IMG/VR virus record: IMGVR_UViG_3300044631_002195
Location: 1-28,555 of that record
Direction: 5' to 3' (one strand)
Origin: a virus
Length of the DNA stretch: 28,555 nucleotides
In this document: positions 9,935 through 28,555 of the stretch, in pieces
How positions within the stretch are numbered: the stretch's first letter is position 1
How the letters are laid out: every line of letters begins with the position of its first letter
Program-made: the position numbers and the translations under genes
Notes under the pieces: model-generated
Told to the model about the DNA's origin: nothing
Seen by the model: only the letters and a program-made list of their open reading frames with translations
Database searches by the model: none

Positions 9935-9959
9935 ATATACTCCTTTGGTATGTATATAA

Positions 9960-9988
9960 ATTATAGCACTAGAAAATTAAAATGAAAA
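9960..9988 (-). promoter_or_regulatory. Promoter with extended -10 (TGCTATAAT) after capsid terminator
   Basis: On the minus strand, TTTTCA (9988-9983), a 17-base spacer and TATAAT (9965-9960) with TGC directly before it form an extended -10 promoter. The -35 overlaps the U-tract of the capsid terminator. A good Shine-Dalgarno sequence and the ATG at 9934 follow. The arrangement and the TGCTATAAT string repeat at 5928-5920. Confidence 0.6.
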
Positions 9989-10015
9989 GCCCCCAAAATT
10001 AATTGGGGGCCTTTC
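9985..10015 (-). terminator. Rho-independent terminator after major capsid gene
   Basis: The stem is GCCCCCAA / TTGGGGGC (9989-9996 with 10003-10010) with a 6-base loop. On the minus strand it is followed by CTTTTCATTTTAATTTT, a good U-tract. It lies about 25 bases after the capsid stop codon. Confidence 0.8.
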
Positions 10016-10034
10016 CAGCAAGTTATTTCTTAAA

Positions 10035-11087
10035 TTAAGAAGCAACCTTAACGTCTTTTACAACTACCCATGCGTCTGCCTGCTCAATTTGGGTTCCAAC
10101 ACGAGTATACATTGTATATTCGATTGAGTCCTTCTTTGGCCAGAAGAATCGGTAAACAGTTACGTCACGCTTGATACCAATAACTACGTTATTAGGGAAT
10201 GTCAAGTGAACGTCTCCGTGATCTCCTGTTGGTGTTGCATATGAGCCAGTCTGTGTTTCCTTAAGTAGTGGAACCTCAACAATTGGAATACCAAATGCGA
10301 ATGGTGCTACGTACCCTGCTGGACCACCAAGTCCGCCTTCATTTCCACGGATAATGCTTGAAGCAATATCTTGTGGGTTAGCAGAACCGTATTGACCCAA
10401 CTGTGAAGTTGAGTACAAGTAGTCTTGAATTAGGTTTGAGCCTGCAAGGAAGCGTAGGTCTGGACGACGTTGCTTGTACTTACGTGGCATAGCCTTAAGA
10501 GCCTTGTTGAAGATTTCACGAGACACGTTTGCGCCTGCTCCAGCTACTACATGGCCGTTTGCCTTTGCAATCTTAACAACACCATCAAATGACTTGTATA
10601 GTGCATCTGATGTTAGAGCTGTGTTACCGTTAAGGACTACGTCCTCAAGGTCGTTACCAGCCTGTGTTGCCATAAGTCTTGCAATGTGATCTTCTAGATC
10701 TGCACCTTCAATGTTGTCTTCTAGAGACTCAGTTGAAAGCTCCCAATCTAGGCGAAGCTTCTTTGTTGTGAGAGAAATCTTTGAAAACTGTACAGCTGCA
10801 TTTGAGCCAGTGTCAGTTGCTTCGGCTGCAAGCTTCATAAGCTTCTCACCAACGCCAATACGATCAATCTCTGTAGTGTCAGCTCTCATTCGAACTGTAC
10901 GTGCTACTTTACCGATTACTGTTGCATCGAACATGTAATCGAGGAATCTTGCGGATTGCTCAGGATTGAGCAAGCCTCCCTTACCCTCGGAACCTACGTG
11001 AATTCCGTCGGTAGGGTTTGCAGAACCTGTCATGCTACCTGTTAGAGTAGCAGCTTCTGCTGCTTTTGCTAATAGTTCATTACTCAT
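10035..11087 (-). CDS. Major capsid protein (HK97 fold)
   Basis: The 350-residue protein forms the icosahedral shell. It starts at ATG 11087 with GGTGA upstream and lies directly after the protease-scaffold gene, the standard order. Features consistent with the HK97 fold are the flexible N-terminal arm, the E-loop-like region around residues 60-115 (VARTVRMRADTTEIDRIGVG), a spine-helix region (LEDHIARLMATQAGNDLEDVVLNG), and a C-terminal part with GIPIVEVPLL and NNVVIGIKRDVTVYRFFWPK. The gene has its own terminator, as expected for the most abundant virion protein. The first ~35 residues are Ala/Ser/Gly-rich and could be removed or act as a delta-like segment. Confidence is high from sequence pattern and synteny. 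Confidence 0.9.
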   Translation of the reverse strand: MSNELLAKAAEAATLTGSMTGSANPTDGIHVGSEGKGGLLNPEQSARFLDYMFDATVIGKVARTVRMRADTTEIDRIGVGEKLMKLAAEATDTGSNAAVQFSKISLTTKKLRLDWELSTESLEDNIEGADLEDHIARLMATQAGNDLEDVVLNGNTALTSDALYKSFDGVVKIAKANGHVVAGAGANVSREIFNKALKAMPRKYKQRRPDLRFLAGSNLIQDYLYSTSQLGQYGSANPQDIASSIIRGNEGGLGGPAGYVAPFAFGIPIVEVPLLKETQTGSYATPTGDHGDVHLTFPNNVVIGIKRDVTVYRFFWPKKDSIEYTMYTRVGTQIEQADAWVVVKDVKVAS

Positions 11088-14462: not shown

Positions 14463-16226
14463 TTATATGATTTGGAACACAACCCTGTCTCTAGAGTATG
14501 TTTTTATTGGCTCTTCTGTCATTACTATTGAAGATCCGTCTGCTACGGCTGATGATTTTCCAATATACAATTCGTAGTGCTCTTGATGATTAACCGCATT
14601 ACTTGAATAAACTGTTATATTTTGATAAAGATTATTGTCTAAAACTCCAGACCTGACACCAAGCAGCTGCTTTCCATTTAGCCATACCTGTCCAGATATA
14701 TCAGAGGCTGGCTTTATTAGGATATAGTTGGGTTCATCTATATATAAGTATGAAGATATATTTGTTGCTGATGAAGCGTCTTGCCCGTTGATATATATAT
14801 TGCTAATATTAGACTTTGTTATACCTCCTCCTGCCGTCCAGGAAATATATGTTTCAACCAATCCTGTTTTATTAAATAACAGGTACCCGCTTGATAATGA
14901 TTTTGGAGTAAATATCATCTCTATGCTTCCGCATTCACCAACTAGGTCTATAAAAAATGCTGAAGAATTTGGCCTAATTCCATTATTATAAACTCTGGTC
15001 CTTACTGGATAATTATCTTTTGATATGTCTATGTCCCAAGACGATCCTGATGTTGGTTGAGATGTTGAAATTATATTGCCTGCACTACTAGCATACAATT
15101 TTTTTTCAGAATAAAAATAAAATTTTAAAGAATATAATTCTGGAATGTATAAATCAGAATCCGATGACTCAAAAACTACTCTAAAATACAAAATCTTATT
15201 TGAAGAAAAATTAGACCCTTGGGTGAAACCTGGAATAGATGATCCATTAGAACAAATAGTCCAAGGGCCAGAAGCCGAAGTTTCTGAAACATATATTGAA
15301 ACTCCGCTTGATGCAACCCAATCAATTCTTGAAGAAATATAATCTTTTGCTATACTCAAAACCATATCTTCTACAAACTCCCCAGAAGAATCTCCTGAGT
15401 TTAGATAGATGCTATTGTTGATAGAGTTATAAGAAAGATTATTATTGTTGTAGATTAACGATTCCCATTTTTCCTGCTCGGGATAAGAGTATGTTGTTTC
15501 AATTGTTTGGTACCTATCTGAAGCTTTGAATAGGCTTCCAAGTTCTGGTGAAGATATTTGATCATCCGTATTTAAAAATAAATTATTATAATGAGACATT
15601 ATTGAATCTTGAGACAATGCGTACCTATAAACAGCTGGACTATCAATTAAGAAATATTCTCCAGATGCCGATGGTCCAGAAGATAAAACAACAGATGTAT
15701 TTGTAAATTTTATAGACACTTCCTGAGATGCAACTAAAACTCCATCTACATACAGACTCATTGCTCTTACAGAATAAACACCGACAACATGCATTACCCT
15801 GTTTGGATTGGGCACTGAATAATCAATTCGGACAGATTCTAATTTAAATACAATGTTTCCATTATCCCAATACAATCCAATTCCGCTTGAGTCGGCTAAA
15901 ATTGGAGTAAAAGAGGTTAATGTTTTTGGATGAAACCAAGATTCAAGGGTGAAGTCGTTATCTGATGTATCTGCTGTTGCAAATCCACCTGTGCCAGCCG
16001 TTCCAGAAAAATCTTTTGACAATGTAAACTGTATATAGCTAGAGCTGTCAATTTTATTTGAATGGTCTCCGCCAGAAACTACTGGCATTCCTAGTTTAGC
16101 TATTTGACCAACATAGGACCCGTGATTATTGCAGCCAGAAATATCATAGGCTACTTGACCAGATGACTCATCTAGCTTCCATAGTCCAATAGGAGAATCT
16201 TTTATTGCTGACAAATAGTATGACAT
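14463..16226 (-). CDS. LamG-domain tail adhesin / receptor-binding candidate
   Basis: The protein has 587 residues. Residues ~1-215 match a LamG/concanavalin-like jellyroll: SPIGLWKLDESSGQVAYDIS at the start, DNDFTLESWFHPKTL, then HVVGVYSVRAMSLYVDGVLV. Residues ~235-370 form a second beta-rich region (SSGVSIYVSETSASGPW, LYFRVVFESSDSDLYIPELY). Residues ~415-587 look like another LamG-like unit (FFIDLVGECGSIEMIF, NYILIKPAS, QVWLNGKQLLGV). Such proteins bind carbohydrates or cell surfaces, so it is a candidate adhesin. The ATG at 16226 has no Shine-Dalgarno sequence but has TATAAT 6 bases upstream. It lies between the enzyme island and the portal, an unusual place for an adhesin. Confidence 0.72.
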   Translation of the reverse strand: MSYYLSAIKDSPIGLWKLDESSGQVAYDISGCNNHGSYVGQIAKLGMPVVSGGDHSNKIDSSSYIQFTLSKDFSGTAGTGGFATADTSDNDFTLESWFHPKTLTSFTPILADSSGIGLYWDNGNIVFKLESVRIDYSVPNPNRVMHVVGVYSVRAMSLYVDGVLVASQEVSIKFTNTSVVLSSGPSASGEYFLIDSPAVYRYALSQDSIMSHYNNLFLNTDDQISSPELGSLFKASDRYQTIETTYSYPEQEKWESLIYNNNNLSYNSINNSIYLNSGDSSGEFVEDMVLSIAKDYISSRIDWVASSGVSIYVSETSASGPWTICSNGSSIPGFTQGSNFSSNKILYFRVVFESSDSDLYIPELYSLKFYFYSEKKLYASSAGNIISTSQPTSGSSWDIDISKDNYPVRTRVYNNGIRPNSSAFFIDLVGECGSIEMIFTPKSLSSGYLLFNKTGLVETYISWTAGGGITKSNISNIYINGQDASSATNISSYLYIDEPNYILIKPASDISGQVWLNGKQLLGVRSGVLDNNLYQNITVYSSNAVNHQEHYELYIGKSSAVADGSSIVMTEEPIKTYSRDRVVFQII

Positions 16227-16228
16227 TT

Positions 16229-16822
16229 TTATATTATATCAGCACTAAAGTTATATACGGCATAGTACTGATCGTCTTCGTTAAAATGACCTATCTTGTA
16301 TAAAGATCCTGGAGGTATAATTAAAACAGATCCCTTTTTTGGAGCAAACTGGCTTTTAATTCCATCTTCAACAACGAATGTTTCTGAAGATGCTTGGGAC
16401 TCGTTTAAGAATAAAAATGCTGTGAATTCTTCTGACTCTTCATAACCTTCATCAAAAATATATGAAACTTCTTGCCTATATAGATTTGATGAACTAGATT
16501 TATTATTTTTAAGACCAAAAGCATTTGTGTAAAGATCTGATGTGCTCCAAAAAGCCATCTTTATACTGTTTGATATGTAAAGGGGTAGGTCGTTGCTTGG
16601 TGAATCAAATGTGACTTGCTTAAAATATCTATTGCTTTTTTCGTGGTTAGCTTTTACATCCATACACTGATCTTGACTAACGCCAACATTGAGCCATTGG
16701 CTATTAGAAATGGAATCCTTTATTTTTTCTACAAAACCATCTGCGTCGGTTATTGAATGGTTAAATATAAAAGAATGTGGTCCCAATTGAGAAACTCCAA
16801 ACATTGGTATGCTAGATGTCAT
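16229..16822 (-). CDS. Degenerate 2OG-oxygenase-like (double-stranded beta-helix) protein
   Basis: The 197-residue protein has the same C-terminal layout as the neighbouring oxygenases: YRQEVSYIFDEG, FTAFLFLNES in place of MYLNDDY, then FAPKKGSVLIIPPGSLYKIGH in place of KPKAGSIIIFPS...H. The first metal His is not present (IFD instead of HxD), and the distal His and 2OG-binding K/R are not at the expected spacing. It is therefore probably not an Fe(II) dioxygenase and could be a non-catalytic partner or a binding protein. It starts at ATG 16822 in a TAATG overlap with the stop of an intact oxygenase gene, which supports a joint function. Homology is inferred by eye from the core pattern. Confidence 0.55.
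   Translation of the reverse strand: MTSSIPMFGVSQLGPHSFIFNHSITDADGFVEKIKDSISNSQWLNVGVSQDQCMDVKANHEKSNRYFKQVTFDSPSNDLPLYISNSIKMAFWSTSDLYTNAFGLKNNKSSSSNLYRQEVSYIFDEGYEESEEFTAFLFLNESQASSETFVVEDGIKSQFAPKKGSVLIIPPGSLYKIGHFNEDDQYYAVYNFSADII
16233..16238 (-). promoter_or_regulatory. Possible -10 box for leaderless LamG adhesin mRNA
   Basis: TATAAT on the minus strand ends 6 bases before the ATG at 16226, and no ribosome binding site is visible. The box overlaps the last codons of the upstream gene in AT-rich sequence, so it may be chance. No good -35 was found. Confidence 0.3.
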
Positions 16823-17430
16823 TAAAACGGCTCCTTATACCAAAATAGCGGGACCATGTATTTGCTTCCGCTGTTTATTTTTTTAGGATGGTGAACATAC
16901 GGGTGTGTAGATGGAAATATTATTATACTGCCAGCTTTTGGCTTTATACTTACTCCTTGATTTGGAAAATCTATCTCCCCGCCATCGTAATCATCGTTTA
17001 AATACATGACTCCTGATATTACTGGATGCTTTATATTTGTAGGATCATCAGAATCAATATGTGGGCCCATGTCTGCGCCAGGGCTATATTTTTTTATATT
17101 AAAAAAATTAGGAAGCCATGGCTTACTAATCATATGAATATTGCAATAGCTTGATATTGCAAACTCAGACAAAGAATGTATAGTGCTGGATATCTTATAC
17201 GCATCAAAATCATTTTCGTCAGTCATACGATTTGTTTGAAATACACCAGATTTTCCAATACCGTATTTTGTCATAGAGTCAGTACTTGCATTCCATTCTT
17301 CCCACTTTGATATTCCTACATCTGGTTTTAATAAATTTTCTGATGCTTCTATGTCAACAATAAATTTTTCTGGGTTGTCCAAGATACTCTCGTAATAAAA
17401 TATTTTATCGTATATCTTTTTTATAATCAT
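16822..17430 (-). CDS. 2OG-Fe(II) oxygenase, prolyl-4-hydroxylase-like
   Basis: The 202-residue protein couples oxidation of 2-oxoglutarate to hydroxylation of a substrate. Metal ligands are His124 and Asp126 (PHIDSD) and His180, and the 2OG-binding Lys190 comes 10 residues after His180, the spacing of collagen prolyl-4-hydroxylase. The family signature YLNDDYDGGEIDFP lies between them, followed by KPKAGSIIIFPS. It is a single-domain enzyme without signal peptide, acting in the cytoplasm. It starts at ATG 17430, 2 bases after the stop of another oxygenase, and overlaps the degenerate relative downstream. The substrate is unknown; virion proteins are a possibility given the adjacent fibre genes. 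Confidence 0.85.
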   Translation of the reverse strand: MIIKKIYDKIFYYESILDNPEKFIVDIEASENLLKPDVGISKWEEWNASTDSMTKYGIGKSGVFQTNRMTDENDFDAYKISSTIHSLSEFAISSYCNIHMISKPWLPNFFNIKKYSPGADMGPHIDSDDPTNIKHPVISGVMYLNDDYDGGEIDFPNQGVSIKPKAGSIIIFPSTHPYVHHPKKINSGSKYMVPLFWYKEPF

Positions 17431-17431
17431 A

Positions 17432-18343
17432 TTATTGGCTATCCGTATTATTTATTTTAAAAAAAGTTTCCTTCTGATTTGTTTCCATTATTTTACCAAC
17501 AGATGGTTTAGATTTTGTTATAGAGTAATCTGGAGATTCTCCCTCTCCTATTACATACCTATGCCACTTTCCACTATTAAATGAAGCTTTTCTTTCAGCT
17601 TTTCTTATAGATTCCCATTCTTCTTCACCGTGTTTCTTAAGACCATCATGCCAATACTCTGATCCGTCATACTGGTACTGCCAAAAAGTTCTAACCAGGT
17701 ACTTGTCTCCGTTAGATATCTTGTCTACGCCATGAAAATACCGAGAGGCTCCTGTTATAGGATCTCCAGATGGGAAAACAACAACATCTCCAGCTTTAGG
17801 CTTATAGTGAATAACTTCTCCAGACTCTTCTTCTAAGAAAGACAATCCTCCGCCCTCGTAATCATCATTGAGATACATTGTGCATGTTACAGCAAATTTT
17901 AATCCTGGGTCATCTGCTGTAGCACCAACATAATCTGTATGATAGTGCATAGCAAGATTGTTTTCTGCTGCCGTTTCTTTATATTTGCATATTGAAAAAC
18001 CAGAAGAATGCCAGTTTGGCAACTGAATATTATATTCGTCTATATAGTCTTTTGTAACAGAATAAAAAACTTTATCTAGTTCTGCTAAAAAATCTGATTG
18101 TTTTTTTGCATATTCATCAGTAAGGTCAATTGGGTTTCCATCCCAATCTGCTTCATACTTGTGATCTCTTGTCATGCCAAGATTCATCATTAATCCAAAT
18201 CCGTACCAGTCGTCCCACGATTTAAATAAAAACTTAGGATCACTTTTTTGAGATAGCTCTAACAAATCAATATAATCCTTATGATTTGGAATTGCATTTT
18301 GATATACAATTACTCTTGGATATATAACAACTTTTTTAATCAT
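17432..18343 (-). CDS. 2OG-Fe(II) oxygenase, prolyl-4-hydroxylase-like, with C-terminal extension
   Basis: I chose ATG 18343 (303 residues) because GGAG lies 8 bases upstream; an in-frame GTG at 18391 would overlap the dehydrogenase gene and lacks a good site. Metal ligands are His135 and Asp137 (HYHTDY) and His204 (YFHGV), with Lys214 10 residues later. MYLNDDYEGGGLSF and YKPKAGDVVVFPSGD complete the family pattern. Unlike its neighbours it has about 80 residues after the core (WHDGLKKHGEEEWESI and a basic stretch), a charged tail of unknown role. It is the largest of the five intact enzymes in the island. Confidence 0.87.
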   Translation of the reverse strand: MIKKVVIYPRVIVYQNAIPNHKDYIDLLELSQKSDPKFLFKSWDDWYGFGLMMNLGMTRDHKYEADWDGNPIDLTDEYAKKQSDFLAELDKVFYSVTKDYIDEYNIQLPNWHSSGFSICKYKETAAENNLAMHYHTDYVGATADDPGLKFAVTCTMYLNDDYEGGGLSFLEEESGEVIHYKPKAGDVVVFPSGDPITGASRYFHGVDKISNGDKYLVRTFWQYQYDGSEYWHDGLKKHGEEEWESIRKAERKASFNSGKWHRYVIGEGESPDYSITKSKPSVGKIMETNQKETFFKINNTDSQ

Positions 18344-18365
18344 TCTGAGATCTCCATTCTTTAAT

Positions 18366-19055
18366 CTATCCGATTTGAATAGATTGTCCACCTATGCAAT
18401 TAGATTTTGGGTCAAACAGCAACTCGACAATATCTGCTATATCTGAAGAAGTTACCTGTATACCTATTGGTTGAGATGCTATGTAATATCTTAAATCAGG
18501 ATTATTTTCAAAAACTCCCTTTGCCATATCTGTATTTATTACACCAGGACATATAGCATTTGGTCTAATTTTTGTTTTACGTAAATCTTTAGCTAAGGAT
18601 GAGGTAAAGCCCTCCACGCCACTTTTGCTGGCCGTGTAAGCTGTATTTGAATTTGGTATATGTGCTGCAATACTGCTCATGTTAATTATCGGAGTATGCG
18701 TTTCTGTATCCATAAGTTTTAAAAAAACAGAACACATGTTCATGGTGCCTAGCAAGTTTACTGATATCACCTCTTTGTATCTTTCATAAGGTTGCAACTC
18801 AAAGGGTGCTGCTTCAAATATACCAGCGCAATTAACAAGTCCAGCAATTTTTTTGTGTTTTATTTTTTCGTAAACAGATCTAACATTTTCAATATCAGAA
18901 ACATCACACTCTTCAATACTATAAGGTGCTGGCTCGTAATCCTTATCCCTTATGTTTTTTGTTGAAATGCCTAACACTTCATATCCAATAGAATGAAGTC
19001 TTTCGGCTACGACTCTACCTATACCTCTGCTAGCTCCAGTTACAATTACTGTCAC
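18366..19055 (-). CDS. Short-chain dehydrogenase/reductase
   Basis: The 229-residue classical SDR has all key residues: the NAD(P)-binding TGASRGIG at 6-13, NCAG at 75-78, and the catalytic Asn100, Ser127 (INMSS), Tyr140 and Lys144 (YTASK), followed by PG at 170-171. Such enzymes oxidise or reduce alcohols and ketones with NAD(P)(H). The length is normal and the gene appears intact. The GTG start at 19055 overlaps the stop of the previous oxygenase (GTGA), so the two are translationally coupled. Its place inside a run of oxygenases suggests it acts on the same small molecule or on an oxidised product. The substrate cannot be read from sequence; FabG-like or sugar-type reductases are both possible. 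Confidence 0.9.
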   Translation of the reverse strand: MTVIVTGASRGIGRVVAERLHSIGYEVLGISTKNIRDKDYEPAPYSIEECDVSDIENVRSVYEKIKHKKIAGLVNCAGIFEAAPFELQPYERYKEVISVNLLGTMNMCSVFLKLMDTETHTPIINMSSIAAHIPNSNTAYTASKSGVEGFTSSLAKDLRKTKIRPNAICPGVINTDMAKGVFENNPDLRYYIASQPIGIQVTSSDIADIVELLFDPKSNCIGGQSIQIG

Positions 19056-19774
19056 GCTTCACCATTTTTTCCAACATAGTCTGGTATTATTCCCATATCA
19101 GCCATGTCTTTCCAATTCTTATACACTTCTTCTTGCTTGGATCTAGTAATCTTTAGCTTTTCTTCTCGTTCACGAATTTGCTCTTCTGTGTAAGTTAAAC
19201 CATCTAGGTCCCAGAAGGATCCTACGGTGTATCTTGTGCCATCATGAACCTTTGTAACCTCATGCTCATTATTGTGGCCTCCCGCAAAAAACACTAGCAT
19301 TCCCTTTTTTGGATGAATTTGAATGTCATCGTTTTTAAAGTTTAAGTATCCGCCTTTAAAATCATTATTTAAATATATAAAGGATGCGTATTTACTTCTT
19401 TCAAACTCTGAAGGGGATCCATCCTCATTTGAATTATCTGAATGGAAAGCAGCAAAAGCTCCTGGAACCCATTTTTGTGCATGATAACTAACCTCATCTA
19501 ATCTTTTTTGAATTAAAGATTCTCCCATTTCTTTTATTCTTGGCTTTAGCATATTGTGAAAATAATCTTTTGGAAGACCAAACATTTCACAACCTCCTGT
19601 AGGGTCTTCATCCCAAAATCCCATTGCAAGAGATCCGTAAAAAGAAATCTGATTCCAGTCAAGTATATTACTCGAAGACAACCAATCAAGATAGGATATT
19701 ATAGATTCGCATTCTTTATCTGTTATAAAAGACTCAACAGAAAAACATTCTTCTCCGTGCTGCTCAATCTTCAT
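19052..19774 (-). CDS. 2OG-Fe(II) oxygenase, prolyl-4-hydroxylase-like
   Basis: The 240-residue enzyme is numbered from ATG 19774. This start is preferred to ATG 19783 because AAAGG is then 10 bases upstream rather than 1. Metal ligands are His111 and Asp113 (FHSDNS) and His171 (EHEV), with Arg181 10 residues later binding 2OG. The core has IYLNNDFKGGYLNF and HPKKGMLVFFAGG. A C-terminal helix of about 45 residues (EEQIREREEKLKI) follows and may mediate oligomerisation. The gene overlaps the preceding oxygenase and is coupled to the dehydrogenase downstream. The Arg in place of Lys distinguishes it, with the 19764-20441 enzyme, from the other three. Confidence 0.86.
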   Translation of the reverse strand: MKIEQHGEECFSVESFITDKECESIISYLDWLSSSNILDWNQISFYGSLAMGFWDEDPTGGCEMFGLPKDYFHNMLKPRIKEMGESLIQKRLDEVSYHAQKWVPGAFAAFHSDNSNEDGSPSEFERSKYASFIYLNNDFKGGYLNFKNDDIQIHPKKGMLVFFAGGHNNEHEVTKVHDGTRYTVGSFWDLDGLTYTEEQIREREEKLKITRSKQEEVYKNWKDMADMGIIPDYVGKNGEA

Positions 19775-20441
19775 CGCCGACATGCCTTTCTATGGTCCAA
19801 AAAAACGGTGCTGTATATCTAACCCCAGAAGTTATTGGTCTAACCCCATGAATATAATTCTTATCTCCTGGGAAAAAATATGCGGCTTTGGATTTTGGCT
19901 TAAACTCAATTCCCTGCAGTGGGAAGTATAGCTCTCCGCCTTCATAATCGTCGTTAAGATAAAACACTGTGCCTAAATCATACCATGGGAAAGAGTTTGG
20001 CGTTCCAGCGTCTGGACCTTCATGCATTTCTTTATCCGCATGTGGCTCTTGTCTAGATCCAACTGGCCATCTAACAATGCATGGACCTGTTGATCTAGAC
20101 TTTACTTTAAAAAATGTATCAATTGTTTTATTTAATCTATTAATAATATTATCTAAAATAGTTATAATTTCTGGACTGTATTTTTCAAAAGTTTCAAGGG
20201 TGACAACTCTGTCTTTCCAAATATTTGCCTGATATATTAAATTTCCATTTTCATTATACTCATCTTCAGTTTCGTCAAAGTGTTTATTGTTTCTAGCCCA
20301 ATCTAACAAAATGTTTTTTTCATCTTCAGTAATTGCATCTAGTATCTCAACTATATTATCTTTTGAGTTGCCAAAATAACCAGATGGGGTAATTGATCTT
20401 GGGCTAAATGTAGCCATATTTTGACTTGTGTTATGTTTCAT
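19764..20441 (-). CDS. 2OG-Fe(II) oxygenase, prolyl-4-hydroxylase-like
   Basis: The 225-residue protein has metal ligands His134 and Asp136 (EPHADKE) and His198 (YIHGV), with Arg208 10 residues later (SGVRYTAPFFW). The core is FYLNDDYEGGELYFP and FKPKSKAAYFFPGD. The insert between HxD and the core strand (HEGPDAGTPNSFPWYD) is longer than in its neighbours and could shape the substrate site. It starts at ATG 20441 (an ATG at 20417 is possible). No Shine-Dalgarno sequence is seen, but TATAAT lies exactly 6 bases before the ATG, suggesting an internal leaderless promoter. The five intact enzymes share a core but differ in their N-terminal halves, which suggests different partners or substrates. 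Confidence 0.86.
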   Translation of the reverse strand: MKHNTSQNMATFSPRSITPSGYFGNSKDNIVEILDAITEDEKNILLDWARNNKHFDETEDEYNENGNLIYQANIWKDRVVTLETFEKYSPEIITILDNIINRLNKTIDTFFKVKSRSTGPCIVRWPVGSRQEPHADKEMHEGPDAGTPNSFPWYDLGTVFYLNDDYEGGELYFPLQGIEFKPKSKAAYFFPGDKNYIHGVRPITSGVRYTAPFFWTIERHVGDED

Positions 20442-20447
20442 ATTTAT

Positions 20448-20453
20448 ATTATA
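20448..20453 (-). promoter_or_regulatory. Possible -10 box for leaderless oxygenase mRNA
   Basis: TATAAT on the minus strand lies 6 bases upstream of the ATG at 20441, within the 20-base gap after the preceding stop. No ribosome binding site or convincing -35 is present. The spacing fits a leaderless start. Confidence 0.38.
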
Positions 20454-20461
20454 CCTTAGTT

Positions 20462-21166
20462 TTAAGTAAAACTCTTTCTAGTCCAATCCATTTTTTTGTA
20501 ACCGCCGCCGCCTTTAACCCTATGCTTTTTTGCTGATTCATTTTTTCTGCTTAAAATGTCAAAAGATGAATGGAACTCTTTTTCCATTTCCCAAGACTCT
20601 CGCCTAAAAGGAATAATTTGAATATAAGGGGTGCCAGCACTTATTGTTCCGACAAAATCCTTTTTAATAAAAAATGGCATGAGGCCAGGTGTGCTAACCC
20701 TATCATTATCAATGATTCCAGATGTTGTTATAAATGGAAGATCAAATCTGTTTATGGGATTAATATAAAGTCCGCTGTATCCATCTGGTAATTCTGGCAT
20801 CCAGTTTGGGTACCAGTGAAAAGCATTTTCTTGGTATCCGTATGGAACTGGGAACTCTCCCATAACATCCCTTGGCTCACAAAAAGATTTATACTCGTCT
20901 GGAACTGAGACAGATACTTTTCCATCAATTTTATAAAAATGGATGTCGCATGGCGTTAAAAGTAAATATCCAGATACAAAGGAATCCATTAATGCTGGGC
21001 ATGCCTTAAATGATAAGGTATCAGAATCTAATATGTTTCCATCTTTATTAACCCAGTTTCTATTCGCAGAAGAAAACCATTCTGGAACAGATATCTTAGA
21101 AGGCACTGGGTATACAGAATTTTTAAAGTTGTAGTCTTGTGCAGAATGAAAAATTATTTTTGGCAT
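20462..21166 (-). CDS. DUF6065-like protein of unknown function (copy 2)
   Basis: The 234-residue protein carries VPEWFSSANRNW near residue 27, LSFKACPALMDSFVSGYLLLTPCDIHF, then INPINRFDLPFITTSGIID and GTISAGTPYIQIIPFRRESW. This pattern occurs in uncharacterised proteins of phages and bacteria that often sit near oxygenase genes. The C-terminal part parallels the upstream neighbour (ANTPICTILPI against AGTPYIQIIPF), so the two are probably paralogues. It starts in a TAATG overlap with that neighbour. The C-terminus is basic (KKHRVKGGGGYKKMDWTRK). No catalytic residues are obvious. The function is unknown; the coupling indicates that the pair acts together. Confidence 0.6.
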   Translation of the reverse strand: MPKIIFHSAQDYNFKNSVYPVPSKISVPEWFSSANRNWVNKDGNILDSDTLSFKACPALMDSFVSGYLLLTPCDIHFYKIDGKVSVSVPDEYKSFCEPRDVMGEFPVPYGYQENAFHWYPNWMPELPDGYSGLYINPINRFDLPFITTSGIIDNDRVSTPGLMPFFIKKDFVGTISAGTPYIQIIPFRRESWEMEKEFHSSFDILSRKNESAKKHRVKGGGGYKKMDWTRKSFT

Positions 21167-21870
21167 TAATCTATAACCTTTAGATTAATAGCCTTAACCT
21201 CATGCTCACCAACTTTTTGCCCAAACCAATTTAATCCATTTTTATAAAAGTTTGTCCATTTGCCAGAACTCAATATGCTATTTCTGATTTCATCAGCAGA
21301 TTTAGAATCATTAATTTCTAATCCAGAATCCTTTTTTTCTTTGTTAACTTCAAACACTATCTCTGAATTTTGCAGTTCAGATAAAGATATAGGCAATATA
21401 GTGCATATAGGTGTATTTGCTTTAATGGTTATTACTTTATTTGGTTGAGTTACTCTATAAGCTATTGGAAGTGGCCCATCAAAAAAGGAAGTGCTTATGA
21501 GTGTTGTAAAGCATGTTGCTCCATCAACAAAGTAGTTTGATGGTGGCATTGTTAGCAGAGTTACATTATTTTCTGTAGTAAACTTTATTCCTATATTAAA
21601 GCTAACAGTAGCATTTGCTCTTTGAAGACTTACATACTTATCGCCAGCCAAAACTTTAATGTGATCTGCTGAAGAATCTGAAATACCGTCCCATATAAAA
21701 GATATGTCTTCTGGAAAAGAAACTGACCACCCTAGTCTATTTGTTAAAGCAAGTGGAAAACATTGATACGCATGTTTGTCATACGTATCGTCCATCCACC
21801 ACCTTTTTACTGGCATTTGATATATATCTGCAGAATTTTCTGAAACTCTTTCTGCGTATATTTTGTACAT
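21166..21870 (-). CDS. DUF6065-like protein of unknown function (copy 1)
   Basis: The 234-residue protein contains VKRWWMDDTYDKHAYQCFPL followed by ALTNRLGWSVSFPEDISFIWDG. I recognise this as like the DUF6065 family (W-M-D-x-T, A-Y-x-C-x-P-L, N-x-x-G-W), which has no known function. The beta-rich middle (TFTTLIS-like strands, PPSNYFVDGATCFTT) and ANTPICTILPISL suggest a beta-sandwich or cupin-like fold. It is coupled by TAATG at both ends: its ATG overlaps the stop of an oxygenase, and its stop overlaps the start of its paralogue. The family name is from memory of the pattern and should be treated as probable. Confidence 0.65.
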   Translation of the reverse strand: MYKIYAERVSENSADIYQMPVKRWWMDDTYDKHAYQCFPLALTNRLGWSVSFPEDISFIWDGISDSSADHIKVLAGDKYVSLQRANATVSFNIGIKFTTENNVTLLTMPPSNYFVDGATCFTTLISTSFFDGPLPIAYRVTQPNKVITIKANTPICTILPISLSELQNSEIVFEVNKEKKDSGLEINDSKSADEIRNSILSSGKWTNFYKNGLNWFGQKVGEHEVKAINLKVID

Positions 21871-22562
21871 TATAAAAGGCCTTCGTAATACTTTTCCTCT
21901 AGCTTGAAATATTCTGGAGTGTGCGCTGTTTCTAGATAGTCTAGCATTGTAACAATTGAATATTTTAATCCGCTTGTTACTGGCATGGCTGCATGGGAAT
22001 ATATAAAAGCAGAAGGGAAAAGATACAAGTCTCCAGCTCTGGGTTTAATTTTTAAATTAAACTTATCAAAAAACAACTCTCCGCCTTCGTAGTCATCGTT
22101 TAAATATCCAACAGAAGAAAGTACGCATGTATAAGAATAGCCATGGTCTGAGTGCACTTTAAAGTGTTGGTTCTCTCCGTATCTGACATAATTAAACGAT
22201 TCCCAATATTTTAATGGTGCAATATTAAAACCAGAACTGTAATGATTTACTGGATCCAGCTGAACATCTTTTGAGTCTTTCCATATTTGAGCAAGAGCTC
22301 TGTCAGTTTCGTCAAACATGTTTGACTGCTTATTTTCATTATTTGTAGTTATTGAACCATCGTCATTTACCTTAATTTTAAAATCAACACAATCTCTATA
22401 CGATAAATCTGTATTAGAATACCCAGTAGATGCTTGGTTCCACTTGTACCTTAATGATTTTTGAGAACCAATTGTATTTTCTAGCCTATCGATTAGATTT
22501 AAATCTTTTTTAAACACGTCCCTGTAAACAGCAATTCCAGGTGCTAATAGTTCTACATCCAT
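21870..22562 (-). CDS. 2OG-Fe(II) oxygenase, prolyl-4-hydroxylase-like
   Basis: The 230-residue first oxygenase of the island has metal ligands His137 and Asp139 (VHSDHGYS) and His190 (YSHAAMPV), with Lys200 10 residues later (SGLKYSIVTML), as in collagen prolyl-4-hydroxylase. The core is GYLNDDYEGGELFF and IKPRAGDLYLFPSAF. The N-terminal half (MDVELLAPGIAVYRDVF) is like the start of other phage members. It starts at ATG 22562 behind AAGGAG, with a possible extended -10 (TGATATACT) further upstream. Its stop overlaps the start of the DUF6065-like gene. The protein is complete, with no signal peptide. Confidence 0.86.
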   Translation of the reverse strand: MDVELLAPGIAVYRDVFKKDLNLIDRLENTIGSQKSLRYKWNQASTGYSNTDLSYRDCVDFKIKVNDDGSITTNNENKQSNMFDETDRALAQIWKDSKDVQLDPVNHYSSGFNIAPLKYWESFNYVRYGENQHFKVHSDHGYSYTCVLSSVGYLNDDYEGGELFFDKFNLKIKPRAGDLYLFPSAFIYSHAAMPVTSGLKYSIVTMLDYLETAHTPEYFKLEEKYYEGLL

Positions 22563-22584
22563 TAAAGTACTCTCCTTTTTTTAA

Positions 22585-22593
22585 AGTATATCA
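22585..22593 (-). promoter_or_regulatory. Possible extended -10 box before first oxygenase
   Basis: TGATATACT (extended -10) lies on the minus strand in the 37-base gap after the cupin-like gene, upstream of the AAGGAG and ATG of the first oxygenase. The -35 region is poor (TTCCAA at about 17 bases). Confidence 0.3.
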
Positions 22594-22599
22594 TATTGA

Positions 22600-23178
22600 T
22601 TAAATTATTGGAACCCAAACTCCAGGCTCATTATGCTTTAATGCAAATAGCGGTGACACATAAAACTCAATAATATCTGACTCTGAGTCAACCTCAATCC
22701 TAATTAGATCAGTTGGCTTATTAATAATTAAATCACCATCAACCACATTTTGAGATTGAGTTATCTGACCATTATTAAAATGTATTTTGCCGTTATCTAC
22801 TTTTGCAAAATAAAATCCATGAAGAAATGGTATATTCTGTCCTGGGAAATCAAACCACTTTATATTGTCGTTATTATAGTATTTTACAGCTTTACCATAA
22901 ACCATATAATCCTGTGCTTTTTTGTTTATCTGGTAGGTGTCGCATGCATGACCAACTGTAATCGCCACATGCTTATATAAATCATAACAGGATTTTGTGT
23001 ATATAGAAAATATATTTTTTGGCATTTTTTTTATAGATCTAACTTTTACTAAAGATCCGTCTACAAGGTTATAAACATCGTCTATCTTCGGCCCTAAATG
23101 CTCAATATCATGAATAATGTTGTTTATTCCAGAAATATTTTTATGAATAAATTTAGTTTCACTAAATATTTTTTTCAA
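22600..23178 (-). CDS. Cupin-like protein of unknown function
   Basis: The frame begins at TTG 23199, but that part overlaps the previous gene. The TTG at 23178 is taken here (about 192 residues, 17-base overlap); the start is uncertain. The C-terminal half has a beta pattern similar to a double-stranded beta-helix: FLHGFYFAKVDNGKIHFNNG, VVDGDLIINKPTDLIRIEV, then IIEFYVSPLFAL. It lacks the HxD...H triad of the oxygenases, so it is probably not an Fe(II)/2OG enzyme. The N-terminus is helical (GINNIIHDIEHLG). It sits at the head of the enzyme island. The family is not recognised, and the cupin-like description is from pattern only. Confidence 0.5.
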   Translation of the reverse strand: MKKIFSETKFIHKNISGINNIIHDIEHLGPKIDDVYNLVDGSLVKVRSIKKMPKNIFSIYTKSCYDLYKHVAITVGHACDTYQINKKAQDYMVYGKAVKYYNNDNIKWFDFPGQNIPFLHGFYFAKVDNGKIHFNNGQITQSQNVVDGDLIINKPTDLIRIEVDSESDIIEFYVSPLFALKHNEPGVWVPII

Positions 23179-23701
23179 CGTACACAGCTCTCTTGTCAAA
23201 ATAAACTACTGGGTAGGAATAGTTTCTAAAATCAAATATTTGATCTAAATCTATTTTAGTAATAATATCTTCAAATCCTAAATCATATATAGAATTGTAA
23301 AGTTGATCACCTGCTGGGGTTCCGCTATTATCTGAATATATATTTGACCAAACCTGGTACCCCAAATGTTTTGAAAGCATGTCGTTTGTAATTACAGAAT
23401 ATTTTGCAACATTTTTGTTTCTGTAAAATGGGTCAACATACATTCTATTTATTTGGCATGACATTAGCCATGCGCTTTGAGCAATTGGAAAATCGTTATA
23501 TATCTTGTTAGATACTACTATATCCCCAGTTAAATATTCACCAGAGTTATAGGCAGTGCACATAACCTTTATATCAGACTCAGCATCTTCTACAAAAGCA
23601 AAGTAGCCCCATATGTTTTCTTGCTTAAGGTCTAAAGGAAATTCTTTATAAGCAATATCCTTTACGACCTCTTTTTTTTCATTCCCGACAAGGAACTTCA
23701 T
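23162..23701 (-). CDS. GNAT-like acetyltransferase (tentative)
   Basis: The 179-residue protein starts at ATG 23701, with AAAGG 7 bases upstream, in preference to a TTG at 23707. The segment INRMYVDPFYRNKNVAKYSVI (residues ~85-104) resembles the acetyl-CoA binding motif A of GNAT enzymes (V-x-P-x-x-R-x-x-x-x-A). LYNSIYDLGFED near residue 135 resembles motif B (LY...GF). The N-terminal strands (WGYFAFVEDAESDIKVMCTA) are also compatible. It opens the enzyme island just after the fibre genes. If it is a GNAT it could acylate a sugar, lipid or protein amine. The motifs are weak, so this is tentative; an unknown structural accessory is the alternative. Confidence 0.5.
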   Translation of the reverse strand: MKFLVGNEKKEVVKDIAYKEFPLDLKQENIWGYFAFVEDAESDIKVMCTAYNSGEYLTGDIVVSNKIYNDFPIAQSAWLMSCQINRMYVDPFYRNKNVAKYSVITNDMLSKHLGYQVWSNIYSDNSGTPAGDQLYNSIYDLGFEDIITKIDLDQIFDFRNYSYPVVYFDKRAVYVEKNI

Positions 23702-23723
23702 TGCCAAACCTTTCTAGTTTGTT

Positions 23724-25031
23724 TTATGCGGTCCAATCGGTTGGGTAACCGTCGTAAGTAAGACCATTTTCTGTAAAGTAGAAATCTTTTGGCTCAACGT
23801 TTATTGAATAAACTTGAATTGTTACATCTATATTTTTTTCAAGATTTTCAATTGGAACGAATGCTTTTTCATTATAATTGTATATTAAATCAGATGGAAT
23901 TATGTCTGGTGACATTATAGGCTGAATTAGTCCATCTCTTTTTGCAATAATGCAGTGTGTCATAGAGTAAATATCTGAGTTTACAACAACCGCTCCTTGC
24001 GAATCATGTATTCCTATATTTGTTACTGTTGCCAAAGTTTCTTGTGCATTAGCAAAATCTTCTTCGCTAATAACAACTGGTGTTCCGTCGTAAGCATAGT
24101 CATCTGGCAATCCGCTAAAGCTTAGAGTTACAACTTGATCTCCAACTAGAAGTTGTCCAGCAGCAACTAAACCGTTAGGTGTTCTAATTAAAGTACTGAC
24201 TCCAACGCTCTTATAGTTAAACCCTGGAGGTGAAAAGAATCCTGGTGGTGAAAAGAATGCTGGAGGGGCAAAGAACCCTGGAGGTGAGAAGAACCCTGGA
24301 GGTGCAAAGAACCCTGGAGGGGCAAAGAACCCTGGAGGTGAGAAGAACCCTGGAGGTGCAAAGAACCCTGGAGGGGCAAAGAACCCTGGAGGTGAGAAGA
24401 ACCCTGGAGGTGAGAAGAATGAAGGTGCCTGAGTTGTTACGTTTCCAGAATAAGATGAAAATCCACCGCTACCGTTTGCATTTCTTGCCCGTACACGGTA
24501 TGCCTGAGTAGTATTTGCCTCATTTGCTATTGTAGTGCTTCCGCTACCTGCCTGAGTAACAGTTTTATTTTTAACTGGTGACTCATTAGATTCAATGTAG
24601 TAATCAATAATTGTGGATCCACCATCAGATGGTGCTGTCCAGGAAATTGTATCTTGGTTTACTCCAGCAGATGCTCCTGGCTGCGCCATAGTTGCTGGAA
24701 CAGTTGTGGCTGTTGCGGTTGCGGTATTTGAAGCCACTGATGAAGCATATGCGTCAACTGATGTAACCGTATAAGAATAAAGTGTATTAGATGCCAGTCC
24801 TGTATTAGAAAATGTATTTGTTGGATGAGCAACTGTTGCAATTTCAGTGCCACCACGAAATACTTTATAAGAAGAAGGAGTGTTGCCAGATGTTGGGTTT
24901 GTCCAAGACAAATCAATTCTACCATCATTAAATGGTCTATTTGCTGGAACGTTTGTTGCTGTTAAGTTGGTTACTGGATTTGGTCCAGTAAAGTTATCTT
25001 GAGCTGCTGCTCTTCTACCTATATTTTTCAT
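23724..25031 (-). CDS. Fibronectin-III tail protein with PPG repeats and Hint-like C-terminus
   Basis: The protein has 435 residues, with ATG 25031 behind AGGAG. Residues ~16-109 and ~112-201 are two fibronectin type III domains (RIDLSWTNPTSGNTPSSYKV; TISWTAPSDGGSTIIDYYI). Residues 205-270 are eleven FF[S/A]PPG hexapeptides, with one PPA variant. Residues ~274-430 resemble a Hint (hedgehog/intein) domain: TLIRTPNGLVAAGQLLVGDQV like block A, YSMTHCII like block B, and VYSINVEPKDFYFTENG like block F. The block A Cys is replaced by Ser275, and the terminal His-Asn by Tyr426-Asp427, so protein splicing is unlikely. It probably decorates the tail or baseplate. The oxygenases downstream could act on the prolines. 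Confidence 0.75.
   Translation of the reverse strand: MKNIGRRAAAQDNFTGPNPVTNLTATNVPANRPFNDGRIDLSWTNPTSGNTPSSYKVFRGGTEIATVAHPTNTFSNTGLASNTLYSYTVTSVDAYASSVASNTATATATTVPATMAQPGASAGVNQDTISWTAPSDGGSTIIDYYIESNESPVKNKTVTQAGSGSTTIANEANTTQAYRVRARNANGSGGFSSYSGNVTTQAPSFFSPPGFFSPPGFFAPPGFFAPPGFFSPPGFFAPPGFFAPPGFFSPPGFFAPPAFFSPPGFFSPPGFNYKSVGVSTLIRTPNGLVAAGQLLVGDQVVTLSFSGLPDDYAYDGTPVVISEEDFANAQETLATVTNIGIHDSQGAVVVNSDIYSMTHCIIAKRDGLIQPIMSPDIIPSDLIYNYNEKAFVPIENLEKNIDVTIQVYSINVEPKDFYFTENGLTYDGYPTDWTA
24222..24419 (-). repeat. Eleven 18-bp repeats encoding FF[S/A]PPG
   Basis: The 198-base in-frame array lies inside the fibronectin-III tail gene. Units alternate Ser and Ala at position 3, in order S S A A S A A S A S S. 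The S-A-A runs give a 54-bp higher-order repeat with nearly identical DNA, which suggests growth by unequal recombination or slippage. One unit ends PPA instead of PPG. Confidence 0.95.
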
Positions 25032-25050: not shown

Positions 25051-27390
25051 TTATCTTAAATCTCCAGCTAACAACCAAGTTGAAGCTGCAATTTTTGTTG
25101 CTGTTACTGATGAATTTAGTGCTCTTAATGTTCCACCTGGAGTTGAAAGAATTGTTATTCCATTTCCAGTTATATTTGCACCAGTGCCTGATGATTGATA
25201 GAAGCTGATTGAAGAACCGATTGCATATTTTGCATTTCCTGTTGCTTCAAAGCTGATATTCACTGCACCAGACAGTGGAATTAATGAGTCACGAACTGCT
25301 GCATCTGTTCCAAGTAAATCAAGTGTTGTGTTTGATGAAACAGCTGATGCTATTGTTGTTAGAGATGGAACTCCAGCCTTTGTCTGTGTCTTATCTGTAA
25401 ATGCTACTCCTGCTGCTGCAACTGTTACTGTTCCAGTAAATGTTGGTGAAGCAATTGGTGCTTTTGCTGCTAAATTAGTTGTAACTGTTGATGCAAAGTT
25501 TGCGTCATCACCAAGTGCTGCTGCTAGCTCATCAAGTGTATTGAGTGCTGCTGGAGCACCTGCTAGAAGTGCGTTAACCTGTGATGTTGCATCTGCAATA
25601 GCTTCTGATTTAGCTGTTGCAATTGCTGTTGCCTGTGCTGTAGAAACTGGCTTTGAGGCATCTGCTGTATTATCAACATTTCCAAGGCCTACGTGTGCTT
25701 TTGTAACACCAGCAACTGTTCCAGTAAATGTTGGTGAAGCAATTGGTGCGTATGTTGATGCTGCTGTTGTAGATGCTAGCTTAGCATCAAGTGCTGATCC
25801 TAGGCCATCAATTTTTGTTATTTCAATTGCAGCTGATGCATTTATATCTGCATTAACAATTGCGCCATCTGCGATTTTTGCAGATGTTATTGCTGAATCT
25901 GCAATTTTAACAGTAGAGACTGCTCCATCTGCAATCTTGCCTTCTGTAACTGCTAATCCTGCAATTTTGCCTTCAGTTACAGCAGAGTTATTTATTTTAT
26001 CTGTTGTAACGGATGAATCTGCAAGCTTGCCAGTTGTTACTGCAAGGTCAGCAATTTCATTTGTGCCGACTGAGTTATCAGAAAGGTGAGATTGTGAAAT
26101 TGAATTATCTGCAATTTTTGCACCAGTTACAGCTAGATCTGCAAGCTTTGCTACGGTGACTGCTTGATCTGCAAGCTTCGCTGTTTCAACTGCTCCCGTG
26201 TCAATTTTTGCTGCAATGATTGAAGAATCTGCAAGCTTTGCTACGGTGACTGCTTGATCTGCAAGCTTTACTGTGGTGACTGCTTGATCTGCAAGCTTCC
26301 CTGTTTCAACAGAACCATCTGCAATTTTAGCAGAAGTTACTGCTGAATTGTTAATCTTTGCAGTTGTTACATTAAGATCTACAATTTTTTCAGTTGCAAC
26401 AGAATTATCTTGTGGCACTCTTAAATCTGAAAGTCTTACATCTGATGTATAAACTAAATTTGCTGCATCTAGGATACCATGTATGTTTGTAGAAATTGAA
26501 GAATGGTTAGATAGAGAATTTACTACAATGCCATCTGCATAAGCTTTAGTTGAAGCATCTGTACCAGTTGTTGGGACACCAAGATTTGAAATCTTGTTTG
26601 TTCCCATGTTTAATTCACCAGACATTGTATCGCCAGATTTGGCAACTTTTCCAGAAATGGCTGTTGTTAGTGTTCCAGAAAGATCTGCGTTATCTGCTAG
26701 AGATGTAGCAATTTCTGCTAAAGTATTTAGAGCTGCAGGTGCTGCACCAACAACTAACTCAATTGCATCCTGAACAAATGCTGTTGTTGCTACTTGAGTT
26801 GTATCTGTTCCAGCAGAAGCTGTTGGGGCTGTTGGTGTTCCAGTCAATGCTGGGGAAGTTAAAGACTTAGATGTAAGAGTTTGGGCTCCTGTTGTTGTAA
26901 CAAGAATGCTTGTGTCAGCAATTCCGTGTACGTTTGTTGCATCAGATTCGTGAGCTGAAAGCGCTGTTCCTGCTGCAGTTGCTGCCGCTGATATAGCCTC
27001 TGACTTGGCAGTTGCTACATTTGCAGTGGTTGCTAAAAGTGAAGTATCTGCAATTCCGTGTACGCTTGTTGTGGCGTTGTTGTGGTTAGTAACTGCTGTA
27101 GCTACTTCTGCATCAAGTGCTGCTCCACCTGGAAGCTGAGCCAAAGGTATTAATCCTGCTCCGTCAAGAGAGGCTACTCCGTTGGCAACACCTTTTGTGC
27201 TAAGGGCAACGTAGTCGTCTACTGTACCTGAAAGAGCGTAATCAAGATCTCTCCAGGGAGTGTCTCCATCTCCAAATTTAAAAGTATTAGTATCTGTTTC
27301 AATACCAATTTCTCCTGCTGCTAGTGTTGGGTTAGCATCAAACCAATCCTCTGCTAGACCTCTTCTTAACTGTAATCTTACTGTTGCCAT
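25051..27390 (-). CDS. Long tail fibre protein with Mtd-like N-terminus and decapeptide repeats
   Basis: The 779-residue protein starts at ATG 27390 with AAGGGGT 7 bases upstream. Residues 1-52 (VRLQLRRGLAEDWFDANPTL, GEIGIETDTNTFKFGDGDTPW) match the N-terminal domain of major-tropism-determinant-like fibres. Residues ~90-210 are helical with the phage fibre motif PTAPTASAGTDTTQVATTAF. Residues 330-519 are 19 decapeptides of the type AVTxAKIADx, probably a beta-solenoid or trimeric shaft. Residues ~545-575 contain KAHVGLGNVDNTADASKP, a common fibre motif. The C-terminal ~100 residues (ISFEATGNAKYAIGSS to the end, LLAGDLR) are beta-rich and a likely tip. It probably binds or projects towards the host surface. 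Confidence 0.85.
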   Translation of the reverse strand: MATVRLQLRRGLAEDWFDANPTLAAGEIGIETDTNTFKFGDGDTPWRDLDYALSGTVDDYVALSTKGVANGVASLDGAGLIPLAQLPGGAALDAEVATAVTNHNNATTSVHGIADTSLLATTANVATAKSEAISAAATAAGTALSAHESDATNVHGIADTSILVTTTGAQTLTSKSLTSPALTGTPTAPTASAGTDTTQVATTAFVQDAIELVVGAAPAALNTLAEIATSLADNADLSGTLTTAISGKVAKSGDTMSGELNMGTNKISNLGVPTTGTDASTKAYADGIVVNSLSNHSSISTNIHGILDAANLVYTSDVRLSDLRVPQDNSVATEKIVDLNVTTAKINNSAVTSAKIADGSVETGKLADQAVTTVKLADQAVTVAKLADSSIIAAKIDTGAVETAKLADQAVTVAKLADLAVTGAKIADNSISQSHLSDNSVGTNEIADLAVTTGKLADSSVTTDKINNSAVTEGKIAGLAVTEGKIADGAVSTVKIADSAITSAKIADGAIVNADINASAAIEITKIDGLGSALDAKLASTTAASTYAPIASPTFTGTVAGVTKAHVGLGNVDNTADASKPVSTAQATAIATAKSEAIADATSQVNALLAGAPAALNTLDELAAALGDDANFASTVTTNLAAKAPIASPTFTGTVTVAAAGVAFTDKTQTKAGVPSLTTIASAVSSNTTLDLLGTDAAVRDSLIPLSGAVNISFEATGNAKYAIGSSISFYQSSGTGANITGNGITILSTPGGTLRALNSSVTATKIAASTWLLAGDLR
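25834..26403 (-). repeat. Nineteen 30-bp (10-residue) repeats in fibre shaft
   Basis: These units encode SVATEKIVDL, NVTTAKINNS, AVTSAKIADG, SVETGKLADQ and onwards to AIVNADINAS, with pattern [A/S/N][V/I]xTxK[I/L]xDx. The DNA of neighbouring units is partly identical (AVTVAKLADQ-type units recur), while others have diverged. They form the fibre shaft. Confidence 0.9.
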
Positions 27391-27872: not shown

Positions 27873-28555
27873 TTATGCGTTAAATACTGTACCAGATACA
27901 GTAATTGTTGAATCGTTTACTGGATTTACTCTGATTCGGCAATGAGTTCCATCTACATCTGCTGTAATTGTTCCTCTTGAACCATTTGTTCCAACGATTG
28001 CATATTCTGTAATTGCTACGTTATCAGATGAATCTAGTGTTACTAGAATTTCTGAGATTTCGTTATGAGTTCCGTTATCAATCTTAACCAAGAACTTACC
28101 TGATTTAAAGTTTGTCTTATTGAACTGGTATGCAGTTACTGGAACTGAACCAAGTGATGTTGTTCTTGCTGCCACCTGCTTTGCAACATCATTTATATTA
28201 AGATCTGTAAATGGTGTTGTAGCATCTAGAACATCATCAAGTGCTGCCTGAGCAGATGCAATTGCATCTGTTTCTGCTTGGTCAGCGTATGCTTCGTAAG
28301 CAGTTGTAATTGCTCCTTCACGAGTGTCTGTGTAAGCCTTAGCATCTACCTCTGCTTGGTCAGCGTATGCTTCGTAAGCAGTTGTAATTGCTCCTTCACG
28401 AGTGTCTGTGTAAGCCTTAGCATCTACCTCTGCTTGGTCAGCGTATGCTTCGTAAGCAGTTGTAATTGCTCCTTCACGAGTGTCTGTGTAAGCCTTAGCA
28501 TCTACCTCTGCTTGGTCAGCGTATGCTTCGTAAGCAGTTGTAATTGCTCCTTCAC
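27873..28555 (-). CDS. Tail fibre protein, C-terminal part (N-terminus beyond window)
   Basis: The frame is open from the window edge to 27873, giving 226 complete residues; the true start is outside the window. A GTG at 28175 is only an internal codon, because coding pattern continues upstream (QAETDAIASAQAALDDVLDA). The visible N-terminal part is tandem 26-residue helical repeats (AKAYTDTREGAITTAYEAYA), probably a trimeric coiled-coil shaft. The C-terminal ~100 residues (RTTSLGSVPVTAYQFNKTNF, ISEILVTLDSSDNVAITEYA, HCRIRVNPVNDSTITVSGTV) are beta-rich, like a small tip or attachment domain. It is the first fibre gene of the module as seen here. The fibre identification is by repeat style and context. 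Confidence 0.72.
   Translation of the reverse strand, partial: EGAITTAYEAYADQAEVDAKAYTDTREGAITTAYEAYADQAEVDAKAYTDTREGAITTAYEAYADQAEVDAKAYTDTREGAITTAYEAYADQAETDAIASAQAALDDVLDATTPFTDLNINDVAKQVAARTTSLGSVPVTAYQFNKTNFKSGKFLVKIDNGTHNEISEILVTLDSSDNVAITEYAIVGTNGSRGTITADVDGTHCRIRVNPVNDSTITVSGTVFNA
28273..28555 (-). repeat. Perfect 78-bp tandem repeats in fibre gene, cut by window edge
   Basis: Identical units begin at 28273, 28351, 28429 and 28507. Three are complete and the fourth is truncated after 49 bases at the window end. Each encodes 26 residues in frame. The absence of any base difference implies recent amplification or active homogenisation. The total copy number is unknown because the array leaves the window. 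Confidence 0.95.

Follow-up and report, generated by a model that had tools for sequence, protein, structure and literature searches.

Phage tail proteins with FFxPPx repeat arrays and the prolyl-hydroxylase-like oxygenases encoded beside them: a candidate tail-maturation cassette

Few genes lacking an explanation are commoner in aquatic phages than those for 2-oxoglutarate (2OG)- and Fe(II)-dependent oxygenases, which are generally assigned to host metabolism. Papers describe them as numerous and either without known function or involved in adjusting the 2OG and nitrogen of the host (PMC3037559, PMC9602691); their structural likeness to EGLN3, a human prolyl hydroxylase, has also been noted (PMC12774648), and phage P4HA genes are considered to be of "cryptic" use (PMC9301287). 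Among other viruses, the chlorella virus PBCV-1 has a prolyl 4-hydroxylase (P4H), which was characterized with peptide substrates (Eriksson et al. 1999, according to the passage of PMC9301287 that cites it). Here, we describe a locus in the IMG/VR virus record IMGVR_UViG_3300044631_002195 (28,555 bp; the whole stretch is called the window below), where a gene for a tail-type protein with an array of aromatic-proline repeats is followed on the same strand by five 2OG-Fe(II) oxygenase genes. In the open-licence papers searched, we found neither the array nor its link to the oxygenases described.

The array protein (435 residues; 23724-25031, minus strand), which has homologues in >100 viral loci and is the substrate proposed here, is composed of an fn3 domain scoring above the cut-off, eleven FF[SA]PP[GA] hexapeptides (residues 205-270; 24222-24419, minus strand), and a Hint-like C-terminus. 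In terms of the DNA, the array amounts to 11.1 copies of 18 bp by TRF. An initial annotation of this stretch had listed eleven FF[S/A]PPG units, and its coordinates and motifs were right; one of the eleven is FFAPPA, leaving ten FF[SA]PPG units. The assignment to the tail is based upon weak PHROG matches, the position between the tail-fibre and portal genes, and a relative (L011) in which the array is followed by a fused S74 tail-spike chaperone and can thereby be placed in a tail spike or fibre.

All five oxygenases downstream score above the gathering threshold of PF13640, and all have the HxD...H iron triad with K or R exactly 10 residues past the distal His; the initial annotation had described both the five intact enzymes behind the tail protein and this layout correctly. 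On the minus strand, they are oxygenase 1 (21870-22562; HSD...H...K; PF13640, 2.6e-13), oxygenase 2 (19764-20441; HAD...H...R; 2e-7), oxygenase 3 (19052-19783; HSD...H...R; 5e-11), oxygenase 4 (17432-18391; HTD...H...K; 1.6e-10), and oxygenase 5 (16822-17430; HID...H...K; 7e-11). Across about 490 array-neighbour oxygenases, furthermore, HxD...H and the 2OG-binding K/R are kept at 99-100%, and we predict with high confidence that the enzymes are active. The closest solved structures by profile search were Bacillus anthracis P4H (4.5e-16), prolyl 3-hydroxylase 1 (1.9e-14), PKHD-type enzymes, and PBCV-1 P4H (1e-10). When the AF2 model of oxygenase 1 (pLDDT 93.4) was searched with Foldseek, the top matches were prolyl hydroxylases, namely the Pseudomonas putida enzyme in complex with EF-Tu in first place and also algal P4H with (Ser-Pro)5 and PHD2.

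The array is not confined to the window. When IMG/VR was scanned for a pair of FFxPPG units, at least 119 loci were obtained, nearly all of which encode long in-register arrays. PF13640 was present in all of the 50 repeat-bearing records (48 over the cut-off, mostly with 5-8 copies) as compared with 2 of 40 random records, which rules out general abundance of oxygenases in viral contigs as the explanation. An oxygenase was likewise found in the fetched DNA of 97 of the 119 repeat loci but in 2 of 120 random stretches, corresponding to densities of 3.23 and 0.02 oxygenases per 10 kb, respectively. Where at least 2.5 kb of DNA lay downstream of the array, 95 of 107 arrays had an oxygenase no farther than 2.5 kb away. 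Of 487 oxygenases, 470 were on the same strand as the array, and the first oxygenase often begins 0-70 bp after the array gene. In freshwater-type phages, we can thus say with very high confidence that the array-bearing tail protein is almost always encoded beside 2-9 distinct prolyl-hydroxylase-like enzymes.

As a matched control, 39 whole records of capsid relatives of the window were checked for arrays and oxygenases. Among those with the tail region, both features were present in 18 records in addition to the window, neither was present in seven, and there was no record with only one of them; six further capsid relatives with zero oxygenases end before the tail region and were set aside. 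Thirteen records had at least three oxygenases and no exact FFxPPx, and 11 of these show variant arrays upstream (FFPPFFPP, FFPFFPP, HFPPFFPP, or FFSPPFFPPG), while the upstream DNA is missing in the other two (G065 and G073). G065 was indeed considered as a counter-example with oxygenases and no array, but its record starts at the capsid gene and hence misses the tail region. Two relatives (G085 and G086) have an array of TPFGF pentamers with a Hint domain and two oxygenases. The seven with neither oxygenase nor array (G072, G075, G077, G078, G081, G082, and G084) do retain the tail region, albeit about 2 kb of it in two of them, and several array-less relatives have collagen-like GPTGPTGATG proteins or Gly-rich fibres in place of the array. 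Such collagen-like tail proteins stand at the same locus with no oxygenases in L229 (3631-5784), L233 (1085-2542), and L235 (1966-2976), a natural swap of the tail module. Also, neither array nor oxygenases were found in the 35 kb read of Sham, a Stanwilliamsviridae phage with 63% identity to the window in its capsid protein. The pairing recurs in phages lacking the window's portal family (G017, 106 kb; G023, 98 kb); in these, a different N-terminal domain carries the array, and the first oxygenase gene is convergent. The initial annotation had named co-occurrence of repeats and oxygenases as a check on its proposal, and the pairing passed it, both against random records and by joint presence and absence in capsid relatives.

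What is conserved in the array itself was then read from 89 distinct arrays with 1052 in-register units. F1, F2, P4, and P5 of the hexapeptide are invariant even though their codons vary (TTC/TTT and CCA/CCT/CCG/CCC); because the array stretches were bounded by matched hexamers, this invariance holds by construction at the ends, and no broken unit occurs inside. Position 3 is A, S, or G, and position 6 is Gly in 615 units (58%), with S, A, R, L, V, T, N, and others in the rest; since the scan itself demanded two Gly, the true share of Gly is lower. The sister arrays FFPPFFPP and FFPFFPP have little or no Gly. Chance as the origin of the array was ruled out, with no aromatic-proline array in 120 random viral stretches, and as to a cellular origin, one scan of a genome collection gave just two open reading frames, which are apparently unrelated. 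A tblastn search of 50,697 phage records with array proteins, DUF6065, and oxygenase 1 gave no cultured isolate with an array, although low-complexity filtering limits this search, in which three oxygenase matches were read in context. In passing, we noticed a third type of array, (TPFGF)n ahead of a Hint domain, accompanied by two oxygenases and a short-chain dehydrogenase/reductase (SDR) (L217 13560-14858, L218 13083-14381, and L435 13180-14277), and a tail protein with elastin-like (V/I)PGLS repeats directly before a single oxygenase gene (L380 3-2000).

These features bear on the collagen-type reading of the initial annotation, in which the Pro before Gly would be 4-hydroxylated and the fibre thereby stiffened. 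Ten of the eleven units in the window are indeed PPG, and the closest enzymes are P4Hs and prolyl 3-hydroxylase 1. Nonetheless, the variable sixth position over 1052 units rules out a strict Pro-Gly motif, even though the set had been chosen by the presence of two PPG units; FFPPFFPP arrays are accompanied by equally large oxygenase clusters, and the collagen-like tails of sister phages have none. The array has no Gly-x-y register either, given that Gly generally comes no more often than once in six residues and not at every third, on which point the initial annotation had been correct. We therefore regard collagen-type hydroxylation as highly improbable; the core of the original proposal, namely action of these oxygenases on the tail repeat, has good support from association, and the Pro-Gly rationale is not supported.

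In the oxygenase tree, which includes oxygenases 2, 3, and 4 (members of the clade of oxygenase 2 occur in 21 non-redundant loci), the clades contain essentially one member per locus at a conserved distance from the array (59 position changes versus 120 in shuffles). Tandem duplication of one enzyme is thereby ruled out; each of the five enzymes of the window is an orthologue maintained in its own right, pointing to a division of labour among them. Arrays of one type also group together on the tree (16 changes versus 41 when shuffled), a pattern confounded by phage kinship, and the median number of oxygenases is 5 for FFxPPx (35 loci), 7 for FFPP-type arrays (16 loci), and 2 for TPFGF (three loci of one lineage).

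With moderate confidence, we propose that the array is probably the substrate of the oxygenase cluster and that the two form a cassette for tail maturation in phages. The protein with fn3 domains and then the FF-small-PP-x array, which would be of tail-tip or adhesin-like type, would be made first, and the oxygenases encoded behind it, distant kin of bacterial and viral prolyl hydroxylases, would hydroxylate the array ahead of virion assembly, with a different residue or context for each enzyme. As to which residues are modified and for what purpose, our confidence is low: Pro comes first in line because of the kinship with prolyl hydroxylases, Phe may also serve, and hydroxylation might tune the solubility, rigidity, or adhesiveness of this very hydrophobic tail segment.

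The C-terminal domain of the array protein (23727-24224, minus strand) may have its own part in such maturation. An alignment of 14 array-protein homologues matches inteins and a bacterial intein-like (BIL) domain in the PDB by profile search, and Pfam Intein_splicing and Hint_2 are matched in 9 and 5 of the 14 members, respectively. The window copy by itself is a weak match (Hint_2, E 0.029), with Ser at the nucleophile position and the terminal His-Asn replaced; Cys is kept in most of the aligned relatives and His-Asn in many. Array proteins either have this domain or, in many loci, end within 40 residues past the array with FK, FWD, RFY, or Cys-rich ends, and these short forms are consistent with a Hint domain that probably cleaves itself off to leave the array as the C-terminus. 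In a bolder and rather doubtful version of the proposal, each of the 2-9 orthologous oxygenases would hydroxylate a different array position (Pro, perhaps Phe) to yield an adhesive tail-tip polymer, somewhat like mussel foot proteins, with its C-terminus freed by the intein-like domain.

Several observations weigh against the array as the substrate. The association itself fits a substrate and a mere cassette-mate alike, and within the capsid lineage, the tree requires about three state changes, one of them on well-supported branches, so that the independence of the pairing there is weak. At the seventh residue before YL[NS]D, where B. anthracis P4H has an Arg that we take to have a role in peptide binding, the five enzymes of the window have C, F, S, Y, and P, and 462 homologues mostly Y/S/C/F; without conservation of this Arg, substrate recognition is probably not collagen-like. 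In a converse sample of 116 stretches, where oxygenases were picked by the LNDDYEGG motif regardless of arrays, an array was in view in 9: 1 of 49 stretches with a single oxygenase, 0 of 24 with two, 1 of 14 with three, and 7 of 29 with four or more. Most of the large array-less clusters are cut off upstream (L453, for example, begins inside a Hint domain), but L370, L387, and L408 appear to be genuine array-free oxygenase clusters in other phages. Since most of the sampled phage oxygenases have no array in view, the family also has other roles. Conversely, arrays with no nearby oxygenase were found in G067/L224 and about nine others (including L072, L074, L101, and L113), several of which are the first arrays in genomes holding a second array with oxygenases; the clearest counter-example is L224 (8051-11263), with an FFPFFPP array, WSxW (TSP1-like) repeats, and no oxygenase in its 25.6 kb record.

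It is hence conceivable, although we consider it unlikely, that the oxygenases act elsewhere, on another virion protein, on a glycan of the host surface, or on a host protein (e.g., EF-Tu), and that they accompany the array simply as parts of one tail/adhesion cassette that is exchanged horizontally. Array, oxygenases, DUF6065 proteins, and fibre genes do move as a block; many phage oxygenases have no nearby array, and the top Foldseek match is, as noted above, bound to EF-Tu. What argues for the array as the substrate instead is that the oxygenases stay with it across differing N-terminal domains, C-termini, and phage lineages, often at a distance of 70 bp or less, and that their number follows the array type. 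Service to the metabolism of the host, be it 2OG drawdown, nitrogen signalling, or repair, is the usual reading of phage 2OG oxygenases, having been proposed for cyanophages (PMC3037559) and repeated for phage S-SCSM1 with its 24 copies (PMC9602691); this would leave unexplained the adjacency to the tail array, the one-per-locus orthologues, and the joint absence with the array, and is in our view extremely improbable here.

The remaining genes of the window are likewise on the minus strand as far as the main ones are concerned, in the order of tail fibres (28.5-25.05 kb), the array gene, two small genes, a block of oxygenase, DUF6065-type, and SDR genes (22562-16229), a LamG protein, portal, capsid protease, major capsid protein, and tape measure. 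A tail fibre with an Mtd_N domain (25051-27390, minus; PF18454, 7e-13) is encoded immediately upstream of the array gene, and a tail-fibre family is upstream of the array in 104 loci. The contig ends in a tail-fibre gene with a perfect 78-bp tandem repeat (3.6 copies, 100%; 28273-28555), because of which the assembly may stop there. The two small proteins of unknown function between array and oxygenases (23162-23707 and 22600-23199, minus) have relatives in 14 and 13 array loci, respectively. Beyond the Hint-like C-terminus described above, the initial annotation had also not included the DUF6065-type genes, the SDR, and a possible degenerate oxygenase relative. DUF6065 proteins are the commonest non-oxygenase companion (98 of 133 array loci; phrog_7084 in 51); in the window, a DUF6065 protein (21166-21870, minus; PF19541, 1.8e-28) is followed by a second, DUF6065-like one of phrog_7084 (20462-21166, minus), and the two form one family by profile (E 1.8e-36). 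The predicted fold of DUF6065 resembles dUTPase (Foldseek; target-normalised TM 0.74, query-normalised about 0.4), a likeness from which we claim no function. L025 has two different arrays (892-1377 and 9697-10020), and only the second adjoins oxygenases and DUF6065. The SDR gene (18366-19055, minus; PF00106, 3.3e-42) overlaps oxygenase genes on both sides, and the possible degenerate relative (16229-16822, minus) lacks the HxD...H motif and gives a weak oxygenase-profile match in its N-terminal half only, with no Pfam match. A LamG-type lectin-domain protein (14463-16226, minus; PF13385, 6e-15) closes the cassette before the portal. The capsid protein (10035-11087) is up to 63% identical to those of Streptomyces phages of the Stanwilliamsviridae, such as Sham, in which the head genes are also similarly ordered, and this kinship makes an actinobacterial host likely.

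Should the array indeed be the substrate, a large subset of the phage oxygenases would gain a concrete and testable one in a recognisable tail repeat, phages would be shown to hydroxylate virion proteins themselves in several steps, FFxPP arrays would serve as a marker by which to find such systems, and the enzymes would be a natural collection of peptide hydroxylases whose substrates are repetitive. Among the known systems, cyanophage 2OG-Fe(II) oxygenases (phrog_61; 24 in S-SCSM1) belong to the same PHROG family as the enzymes of the window, and several flank tail-fibre genes of S-SCSM1; unlike the latter enzymes, however, those read in context have no aromatic-proline array nearby, and the literature treats them as metabolic genes. 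In this cultured Synechococcus phage, several 2OG oxygenases adjoin gp245 (L364 5081-6346), a short tail fibre whose repeats are of FRQPR/RAPFNF type, and S-SCSM1 thus offers a cultivable place for testing tail hydroxylation. Collagen-like phage tail fibres also have a proline-containing repeat in a tail protein but follow a Gly-x-y register and, in the sister phages, come with no oxygenases, while the bacterial intein-like/Hint domains matched by the C-terminal domain of the array protein differ from the window copy in its Ser1 and its lack of the terminal His-Asn. B. anthracis P4H and human prolyl 3-hydroxylase 1, the best profile matches among solved structures, are cellular enzymes, and the Arg before YLND of the former type is absent from the phage enzymes. 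The P4H of PBCV-1 (vCPH; PDB 5C5T) is, like the enzymes of the window, virus-coded and of the same fold (profile E 1e-10; Foldseek E 3.5e-9); to our knowledge, however, it is a single enzyme in an algal virus, whereas in the phages described here, 2-9 orthologues stand in a set order next to the gene for a tail array.

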